Shown here: positions 20,723-23,440 of the stretch, piece by piece
How the letters are laid out: every line of letters begins with the position of its first letter
How positions within the stretch are numbered: the stretch's first letter is position 1
Origin: a bacterium
GTDB lineage: Bacteria; Chloroflexota; Chloroflexia; Chloroflexales; Kallotenuaceae
NCBI GenBank assembly: GCA_016781505.1
Contig: JADDQF010000036.1
Span: forward strand, 1 to 41,298
Length of the DNA stretch: 41,298 bases
Reading direction: 5' to 3'
Notes under the pieces: model-generated
Database searches by the model: none
Seen by the model: only the letters and a program-made list of their open reading frames with translations
What the model was told of the DNA's origin: nothing
Position numbers and translations under genes: made by a program

Positions 20723-22480
20723 TCAATCCTTGAACGGATCGATCACCGAATCTCCGGCCATCGCCACACCCATCGGGTACAGCAACGTCTCGACCTCGAT
20801 CACGCCCTCGTGAGCGGCGAGCACGTCCGCGATGTTGCGATACACATGCGGGCTTTCATCTAACCCGCCGCCGCGCAGCTCGATTCCCCGCGCCGTAACG
20901 GCCGCGTGCAGCATCTCCGGCGTCACCCGCCCTGGGCTCAGGATCCGTCCGGTCCGGTAGTCACGCTTGCCCGCCGCCTGGGTCCGGCTCATCACCCGGC
21001 CAGAGCCATGCGGGGCGCTATGAAAGCTGACGGCTGCTTCGGGGCTCGCTACGCCGCGCACAATCGCCGTAGGCGTGCCCATTGAGCCGGCGATAATGCC
21101 GCGCACACCAGGGCCGGCAGGTGTCGCGCCTTTACGTACCACAATCAGATCCTTGTCTCCGTGGCGCTCGCGGAAGGCGTAGTTGTGATGGTTGTGCACG
21201 CTGTCCAAAACGCCAGCGCCGAGAATAGTGCGTACCTGCTCGGCCACGAAATCACGACCCGCGTAGGCATACGTGCCGCCCAGCTCCATAGCGGCCATAT
21301 ACTGCTGCCCGAGCTCGGTATCGAGCGGCAGTACAACTGCTGGAGCATCACTGTTTTCCCCAGGCGCCTTGTCGTCCCAACGCCGACCAGCCGCCAAATT
21401 CAAGAAGCCGGTCGCGGTCTTGTGGCCTAGCCCACGCGAGCCGAAGTGGCACACGATCCACAGCCACCCATTGGCGTCACGCGACAGATCGACAAAGTGA
21501 TTGCCGCCACCCACGGTACCCAGCTGCTTGGCGGCCATATCCCGGAGACGCCCAACTTCCTTCACCGTCCGCCAGGTCGGATCATCAAAAAGCTGGTGGT
21601 CGATAGCTTGACCGCTGGTGCGGCCCATGCCAAAGGCCACTGTCCGCTGGATGTCGTCCATCACCGCCGCAAGCAGGGTTCGCCCATCCGCACCCAGCTG
21701 CAACAGAGCATCGGCGCGCAGATCAGTCTTGACCGCCTTGATGCCACAGCCAATGTCGAAGCCCACGCCGTTCGGCGAAACAGCCTGCTCGTAGGCGATG
21801 ATGCCGCCAATAGGGATGGCGTAGCCCCTATGCCCGTCGGCCGCAATGGCCGCGCCGACCACCCGCTCATCATCAGCACAGCGCTGAATCTGGGCCAGCG
21901 TTCCCTCGTCATGGGTGCCCCAAATGGCGATGCCGTTAACGATGCGCAGGACGCCGCGTGGCCGCTCAGGCAGCTCAGCCAGCAGGGTAGCGACAAAAGC
22001 ACTGGCTTCCAATGGCGCCGAGCGTGGAATTTGCCGACCAGGAGCTGCTTGGCCCGTTGCCGCTGCATACACGGCGCTCGCGGGATCGGTCGCCTTGGTC
22101 GCCACGATCTCTGCCACCAGCGCAGGTAGTTTTCGTCCCGCCGTGACCGCGCCGATCGTTTCCCAGACGGCCTGGTAGCCAAAGCACGCCGCTCGCATTG
22201 CGGGCGACATTGTAAGCGCCGCAGGGAGTTCGAGCGGTGGGCTGTCAGGCAACATACCGCCCTTCTTGGCAATTAAGCCGGCCAGCTTGTGCGTCGCAGC
22301 TACCGCCGCGGCTTCCAACTGTGCATCAACCAGCTGCTCCGAGCTCAGTTTTGACGCCGCCGCATACACTGCGCACAAAACTTCTACGGTCGCCTCCACG
22401 CTGCGGAAGCGCGCACCAAGGGGTGGAATAGCGGTTGCGAGCAGCGCGAAGGCTGTGCGACGTGCTTGTTCGTGTGTCAT
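20723..22480 (-). CDS. rtcB: RtcB-family RNA ligase with about 178-residue N-terminal extension
   Basis: RtcB joins RNA 2',3'-cyclic phosphate or 3'-phosphate ends to 5'-OH ends using GTP and Mn. The protein has 585 residues, with AAGGAGG six bases before the ATG. The RtcB domain begins near residue 179 (RIVNGIAIWGTHDEG). It has GVGFDIGCGIKAV (Asp242, Cys245), GGGNHF (Asn327, His328), VCHFGSRGLGH (His345), HNHHNYAF (about 429-436) and the guanylylation block HGSGRVMSRTQA (His491). The C-terminus ends in IEVETLLYPMGVAMAGD as in the family. Residues 1-178 are Ala/Leu-rich, mostly helical, with no recognised domain; ordinary RtcB lacks them. HNH lies 88 bp upstream on the same strand. No archease gene is seen nearby. 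Confidence 0.92.
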   Translation of the reverse strand: MTHEQARRTAFALLATAIPPLGARFRSVEATVEVLCAVYAAASKLSSEQLVDAQLEAAAVAATHKLAGLIAKKGGMLPDSPPLELPAALTMSPAMRAACFGYQAVWETIGAVTAGRKLPALVAEIVATKATDPASAVYAAATGQAAPGRQIPRSAPLEASAFVATLLAELPERPRGVLRIVNGIAIWGTHDEGTLAQIQRCADDERVVGAAIAADGHRGYAIPIGGIIAYEQAVSPNGVGFDIGCGIKAVKTDLRADALLQLGADGRTLLAAVMDDIQRTVAFGMGRTSGQAIDHQLFDDPTWRTVKEVGRLRDMAAKQLGTVGGGNHFVDLSRDANGWLWIVCHFGSRGLGHKTATGFLNLAAGRRWDDKAPGENSDAPAVVLPLDTELGQQYMAAMELGGTYAYAGRDFVAEQVRTILGAGVLDSVHNHHNYAFRERHGDKDLIVVRKGATPAGPGVRGIIAGSMGTPTAIVRGVASPEAAVSFHSAPHGSGRVMSRTQAAGKRDYRTGRILSPGRVTPEMLHAAVTARGIELRGGGLDESPHVYRNIADVLAAHEGVIEVETLLYPMGVAMAGDSVIDPFKD

Positions 22481-22568
22481 AGATATCCTCCTTGCCCGCC
22501 AGGGACGCTAATCGATGCTTGACTAGGCGACCGCGTTCATAGCCGCTTGTAATGTAGCGGTCGCGCCA

Positions 22569-23072
22569 TCAAACGCTGATGTACTTGCGCCAGGTTGGAT
22601 GCCGACCGAGCAGCTCCTGCATCATGTGCGCCCGTGACGGCTGTACAGGCGCCGATCGCAGGCTCATCCGGGCTACGTTGAGTGGCTTGTTCGCCTTCCG
22701 GCTATTGCAGGGACGGCAGGCCGTTACCAAGTTTTCCCATGTCGAACGGCCACCTAAGGCTCTGGGCACGATATGGTCAAGCGTCAGGAGGTGAGCCCCC
22801 GGTGTAGCGCCGCAGTATTGACACGCATACTTGTCGCGCAGCAACACTCCCTTGCGTGTACACGCCGGAGCGTGATACGGCACATGAACATAGCGCTGGA
22901 GACGAATCACCACCGGCTGCGCCAGCGTGTATCGCTCACTATGGAGGTGGCCGTGGCCCGTTTCGATGACCTCGACCTTGCCGCCAAGGACCAGCCGAAC
23001 TGCCCGTTGCACGCCCATCAGCTGGAGGGGCTCGCAGCTCACATTGAGCACAAGCACCCGTGACTCCTGCAT
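22569..23072 (-). CDS. HNH endonuclease family protein
   Basis: This is a nicking or cutting DNA endonuclease-type protein of 167 residues. The ATG at 23072 is chosen for the upstream AAGGGG at a spacing of about eight; an ATG six codons earlier has no binding site. The N-terminal half (RVLVLNVSCEPLQLMGVQRAV) is the conserved lead-in of many stand-alone bacterial HNH proteins. The zinc and catalytic part follows: CQYCG, then LLTLDHIVPRALGG (the His of the HNH motif), NLVTACRPCNSRKANK. The four Cys form two CxxC pairs. Such genes are common outside restriction operons and their role is usually unknown. It precedes rtcB by 88 bp on the same strand and may be co-transcribed. Confidence 0.9.
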   Translation of the reverse strand: MQESRVLVLNVSCEPLQLMGVQRAVRLVLGGKVEVIETGHGHLHSERYTLAQPVVIRLQRYVHVPYHAPACTRKGVLLRDKYACQYCGATPGAHLLTLDHIVPRALGGRSTWENLVTACRPCNSRKANKPLNVARMSLRSAPVQPSRAHMMQELLGRHPTWRKYISV

Positions 23073-23440
23073 GTTGTTCACCCCTTTCATTGTGGTGCTG
23101 TATGCTCGTCAGTGGAGGGGCACTGCCGATTCGGCGCTTAGCGGCAAAAAAGATTGCCAGACTTCGTTGTTGCCATCGAAAACGGGAAGCGCCCCGCAGG
23201 TTCGTTGCCTGGGAGCGCTTCATACGTTCGGTACCATTATGCAGAGGCTTGTTTACACCTCGGGTAGATGGTATCTTGCGTTACACGCTCTGCGCAGACT
23301 ATAGGGCCGAATTGCTTTCTTGGCGAAAACTGTTGGGTACACGGTGAGGCGCACGTCTGACTGACGCAGCGACGCGCACATTGTGCTGCCACAATGTATC
23401 GGCGTTGCGTATGTTGTTTGCCAGATCTGTTGCACTGTCG
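23073..23440. other. Intergenic region upstream of HNH gene
   Basis: No supported gene. A hairpin with outer arms AAGCGC (23187-23192) and GCGCTT (23215-23220) and an inner CAGG/CCTG pair is present. It could be a terminator of the small minus-strand genes further upstream or part of the leader of the HNH gene. No convincing promoter was found. Confidence 0.35.

Follow-up and report, generated by a model that had tools for sequence, protein, structure and literature searches.

A lineage-restricted N-terminal domain on an RtcB-type RNA ligase is probably a diverged copy of a mobile-element protein module

The window, a stretch of 41,298 nucleotides from a genome of Kallotenuaceae (contig JADDQF010000036.1), carries a gene for an RtcB ligase with a long N-terminal addition, and an HNH endonuclease gene lies directly upstream (Table 1). 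The RtcB family model (PF01139) matches residues 197–573 of the fused protein with 224.7 bits (cut-off, 27) and covers profile positions 1–424 of 426. Solved RtcB chains align with the protein from residue 211 on. Alignment to these structures identified the catalytic motifs GVGFDIGCG (D242, C245), GGGNHF (N327, H328), CHFGSRGLGH (H345), VHNHHN (H429), and SAPHGSGR (H491), whose motif residues we take to be the metal-binding and guanylylation positions. An earlier note on this DNA, made from the sequence alone, had described a complete RtcB core behind an N-terminal part of another kind, and the motif alignment and PF01139 bear this out, with the N-terminal part remaining unmatched. The note had placed the start of the core near residue 179; the core does begin late, but its start is better set at about residue 177 (position 21952), the position given by unfused relatives. 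The best explanation is that the gene encodes a full-length RtcB-type 3'-phosphate/5'-OH RNA ligase preceded by a predicted helical domain of about 130 residues. It resembles RtcB proteins of PF01139, such as PH1602 of Pyrococcus horikoshii (1uc2), in having a complete catalytic core with metal and guanylylation motifs, but it is a divergent subtype with an N-terminal addition of about 176 residues that is absent from 25 unfused members of the subtype. A second, canonical RtcB is encoded in the same genome (contig C110) and scores 357 bits, versus 219 for the fused RtcB. In three other genomes (G095, G148, and G027; loci L022, L026, and L029, respectively), an unfused RtcB of the same subtype is interrupted right at the DxxC catalytic cysteine by an intein-like insert that is several hundred residues long.

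Table 1. Position of the fused rtcB gene, its parts, and the adjoining gene in the window.
Feature	Position	Strand	Evidence
Fused-protein gene, N-terminal domain plus RtcB, 585 aa	20723..22480	-	ORF; 81% full-length identity to ortholog L033 4942-6693 (LB3_2)
N-terminal domain, residues 1-130	22091..22480	-	RtcB-free HMM, 32.9 bits; hhalign 97.6%, E 4e-12; probably homologous to the domain found at the N-terminus of element AAA+/vWA/ddrB-ParB proteins
Linker, residues 131-176	21953..22090	-	Outside the hhalign match; SAVYAAATGQA-PGRQI stretch common to LB3_2 (alignment)
RtcB ligase core, residues 177-585	20726..21952	-	PF01139; catalytic motifs; position where unfused relatives start
Shine-Dalgarno AGGAGG	22487..22492	-	6 bases 5' of ATG, read from sequence
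HNH endonuclease gene directly upstream of fused rtcB	22569..23090	-	Pfam HNH_5/HNH

The start of the gene and its codons were compared with those of the ortholog in a second genome (LB3_2). AGGAGG, followed by 6 bases and ATG, marks the start of the window gene, and AGGAGG is also present at the start of the ortholog, in agreement with the earlier suggestion of a strong ribosome binding site and a translated extension. The window gene is free of ATG, GTG, and TTG between residues 158 and 206, as is the LB3_2 gene between residues 120 and 192. For these three codons, initiation inside the gene near 21950 is therefore excluded. Residues 1–145 consist of 26% Ala and 10% Leu, matching the Ala/Leu-rich character described before, and are near neutral in charge (12 K+R, 11 D+E). 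The two proteins are 61% identical in the extension and 90% identical in the core; the extension alignment has only one 2-residue indel and contains the identical blocks GYQAVWETI and SAVYAAATGQA. Values of dN/dS (Nei-Gojobori, window versus LB3_2, with saturated dS) are approximately 0.20 for residues 1–145, 0.18 for residues 146–180, and 0.04 for the core, and the ratio in the extension is about five times that of the core. Judged from its sequence, the extension is a translated part of the protein that is under purifying selection and evolves faster than the core. Structure prediction using an alignment of the two RtcB-fused sequences only gave a mean pLDDT of 31.5 for the full-length protein and of 39.4 for residues 1–182, which were helical at low confidence.

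We searched genomes of the same class for the fusion. A match to the fused protein was found in 88 of 150 genomes, and the extension was covered from its start only in the window genome (G000) and in G121. The fusion is present in two of the four genomes of the genus. Among GTDB genome contigs, the fusion was found at one locus, LB3_2, which was treated as one locus with G121:C44, and no record in the plasmid and phage collections covered 80% of the full-protein query. Among the 16 starts listed for unfused subtype members, the start corresponds to residue ~177 of the fused protein. We also compared 29 RtcB cores in a tree, comprising the two fused proteins, 25 unfused members of their subtype, and two canonical proteins. 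The fused pair is united with support of 100/100 and sits on a long branch next to a cluster of 22 other sequences. The class-genome counts, the core tree, the starts of unfused relatives, and the lack of a record in the plasmid and phage collections indicate that a normal RtcB has received the extension at its front as an addition restricted to this lineage. The earlier description of the extension as unlike usual RtcB N-termini holds up, given its presence in two of 150 class genomes and no Pfam match, and it is far from being a feature of most RtcB proteins. Its conservation within a clade, raised in the same note, is seen in the two grouped genomes that retain it with a dN/dS of ~0.2.

Several alignments that start inside the extension were not counted as carriers, including those in G040 (from residue 85, with a stop), G068 (from 105), G032 (from 114), G038, G030, and G070 (from 135), G127 (from 147), and others (from 153 on). 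These are mostly 35%–39% matches whose high-scoring part is the core, and we infer that the alignments run over into the longer N-terminus of canonical RtcB. A match in G141 to positions 60–170 of the query was regarded as chance and falls in a region that we read as acyl-CoA-dehydrogenase-like ORFs. Flanks of up to 1.5 kb around unfused RtcB loci contained no homolog of the extension, and a standalone partner gene that became fused here was rejected as its source.

Searched by themselves, residues 1–176 gave no Pfam match at E ≤ 10. Searches by tblastn with the extension, or with one of the element copies described below, found no relative in plasmids or phages, and IMG/VR likewise yielded no relative of the extension. 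We then searched 400 genomes of the phylum with a profile made from both fused N-termini, which matched two large adjacent ORFs of G074; a match in a third genome (G037) has an internal stop and was taken as chance. With the G074 sequences added, the profile matched eight of 158 class genomes at E ≤ 0.01, including one (G048) that was discounted for an internal stop. The final 13-sequence profile produced at least 15 matches in at least seven of the 158 class genomes. Two of these are the RtcB fusions, and the remainder are at least 13 copies on non-RtcB proteins, here called element proteins, in five genomes of the same order: G129 (n = 6), G074 (n = 3), G025 (n = 2), G123, and G501. Matches to this profile in the 400-genome phylum sample were confined to G000, G025, and G074 among the candidates scored. 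Between 10 and 25 first-look candidates per genome were scored in the 158- and 400-genome searches, and domain counts are lower bounds.

Since these profiles included RtcB sequences, a reverse test was made with a profile that comprised 12 element copies and from which RtcB sequences were left out. This yielded 45.5 bits for LB3_2 and 32.9 bits for the window copy, compared to 17.3 bits for the best of 5,000 shuffles. Among 2,943 ORFs of 94 loci, the fusions reached 41.2 and 29.3 bits; the best-scoring ORF outside the family reached 9.1. Profile-to-profile alignment using hhalign (97.6%, E 4e-12) spans 121 columns and places residues 1–130 on positions 1–121, colinear from residue 1. The fused copies also have the N-terminal position and the GYxAVxxT and GxxLPxL motifs of the element domain. 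Residues M1, S2, C3, P79, P80, and H82 are invariant in all 11 aligned element copies (of 13 found). The fused copies read MTH or MSE instead of MSC and lack the PPTH motif, and were therefore called a derived homolog of the domain, not a typical member. These comparisons identify the RtcB extension as a probable diverged copy of the N-terminal module of the element proteins, and an extension previously called unexplained now has an origin that can be traced through profile, shuffles, and hhalign. There is no consistent Pfam or PHROG match for the domain, with at most one of 13 rows matching any family. A MoxR-type/AAA+ ORF in G032 (L094, 3430–5070, reverse strand) starts with MSCDYQ like the element proteins and scored 9.1 bits, below detection, and was not counted. 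Repeats resembling a CRISPR array are present at positions 1–720 of the same locus.

The domain is N-terminal in all copies whose start is visible. Host proteins include MoxR/CobS-like AAA_5 proteins, vWA/CobT-like proteins with DxSGSM, a ddrB-ParB protein, and proteins of unassigned type, most of which contain CxxC...HxC zinc ribbons (by this pattern, not the 397-aa ORF of G129). The Pfam vWA model had no match in the one or two vWA-type proteins scanned, so the vWA label is based on motif and layout. In G074 and G129, both the MoxR/vWA core and further proteins of the operon carry the domain, and in G025 it occurs on AAA+ and vWA proteins. In G074, the AAA+ and vWA genes adjoin each other, and their copies are 52% identical and group at 84/74. 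Genes neighboring the domain genes code for ParB_N, Replic_Relax, YdjM, and a ParA-like protein, with a weak TraG-D_C match just below the cut-off, and from these neighbors we infer a mobile element that is plasmid-like or conjugative. Neither RtcB nor any of the five element proteins compared was matched by a padloc model. G000 and G121, which are draft genomes (96% and 86% complete), lack the element AAA+ protein, and each has one domain copy among the candidates scored. In G129, a member of the genus of G000, the AAA+/vWA pair is found twice on different contigs (L062-L063 and L064), with AAA+ proteins that are 88% identical.

Effector-associated domains (EADs) show the same layout, in which a single small domain without enzymatic function recurs on the AAA+, vWA, and other proteins encoded in an operon, and homotypic interaction has been proposed for the EADs of MoxR-vWA ternary conflict systems (PMC7159879). 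Like EADs, the element domain is small, non-enzymatic, and predicted to be helical, is found on MoxR-type AAA+, vWA, and other proteins, and is elsewhere fused to an enzyme; the close similarity of copies on adjacent AAA+ and vWA genes, as in G074, is also shared. Unlike the EAD effector fusions described in that paper, the RtcB fusion has no cognate core component in G000 or G121, and unlike the ternary systems described there, the element operons look plasmid-like or conjugative. No EAD model was listed for the 13 rows (11 element and two fused) when compared to Pfam at E ≤ 1. Models of EADs are included in Pfam. Phages encode MoxR-vWA and CobS/CobT-like pairs, and RtcB occurs in some such viruses (PMC7824862, PMC8651126). 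As in these pairs, the element AAA_5 ATPase gene adjoins the vWA gene, but the element proteins have a new N-terminal domain and zinc ribbons, and the fused RtcB is not encoded beside them. A tblastn search of the phage collection with the element AAA+ protein gave no match. A literature search on RtcB N-terminal domains and extensions, fusions, and MoxR/CobT, in which coverage of RNA-repair reviews was incomplete, found no such fusion or domain. What is new is a normal RtcB bearing an unnamed domain whose origin can be traced.

The most likely explanation, which we hold with moderate confidence, is that RtcB captured a docking module from a MoxR-vWA-type element of the same order. Docking is suggested by the analogy in layout with EADs: where dissimilar proteins from the same operon carry a common module, it would act as a docking domain that gathers them into one assembly. 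On RtcB, the module would tether the ligase to a specific protein partner or to further copies of the module, and RNA repair would be delivered at that place. By this analogy, protein docking would fit better than the substrate recruitment or regulation proposed earlier. Against docking, a homotypic partner is unavailable in G000 and G121, which each have the single RtcB copy of the domain among the candidates scored. The fused copies may also have lost their original function, given the missing MSC start and PPTH motif; the partner may have changed or be a new one, the domain may self-associate, or it may be no more than an appendage. A broader reading, to which we assign a low probability, is that the domain is an undescribed docking domain of conjugative-type elements that would serve in assembly of a MoxR-vWA machine and was captured by a chromosomal RtcB, with the ligase aimed at the machine or its target. 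If so, the host or a lost element would gain an RNA ligase, for example to repair RNA that is cleaved when an element enters or when element and host are in conflict. A connection between RNA repair and a protein module of mobile elements can now be tested through the extension. The domain family, which has no Pfam or PHROG model, marks most large proteins of an operon beside ParB/TraG-like genes. A docking module would indicate the target to which this RtcB is directed, and little is known about such targets for RtcB of bacteria.

An unlikely but reasonable alternative to docking is that a particular RNA substrate is brought to RtcB through binding of the domain to RNA or to the ribosome, with nucleic-acid binding on the element proteins as well (ParB-like, or AAA+ on DNA or RNA). 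RtcB acts on RNA, and ParB-type parts and zinc ribbons are present in several domain-bearing operons; however, near-neutral residues 1–145 show no basic patch visible in the sequence, the zinc ribbons are missing from the fusion, and no known RNA-binding family is matched in Pfam. Somewhat less probable is self-association, by which the domain would multimerize RtcB into a higher-order ligase assembly with no other partner. This would suit the single copy per fused genome among the candidates scored and the helical character predicted at low confidence, but the structure predictions, with mean pLDDT below 40, do not support it, and RtcB homologs are active without such an N-terminal part. 

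Slightly lower again we place a captured remnant, an accident of fusion tolerated as a fast-evolving appendage without a specific role. Such a remnant would agree with the presence of the fusion in only two of four genus genomes, the fivefold dN/dS relative to the core, and the loss of MSC and PPTH, whereas ~61% identity with identical blocks and one 2-residue indel at saturated synonymous sites, and a dN/dS of ~0.2, argue for constraint. That the similarity to the element domain is an effect of the composition of Ala/Leu-rich helical sequence is very improbable. Both are Ala-rich, and the window copy by itself is a modest match of 33 bits, but both orthologous fused sequences match, colinear from residue 1 and far above shuffles of the same composition, and the fusions stand above the other ORFs of the 2,943 searched; the shuffle test and hhalign largely refute this reading.

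The HNH gene adjoins the fused rtcB in LB3_2 as well (69% identical) and is absent from the other flanks searched, which only suggests that it is part of the same unit. The HNH part of the window protein resembles IscB (54.6 bits, below the cut-off) and PtuB-type nucleases. A gene for an IscB RNA-guided endonuclease (L065, 1142–2425; NCBIfam, 424 bits) was also identified on the same short G501 contig as a domain-bearing ORF.
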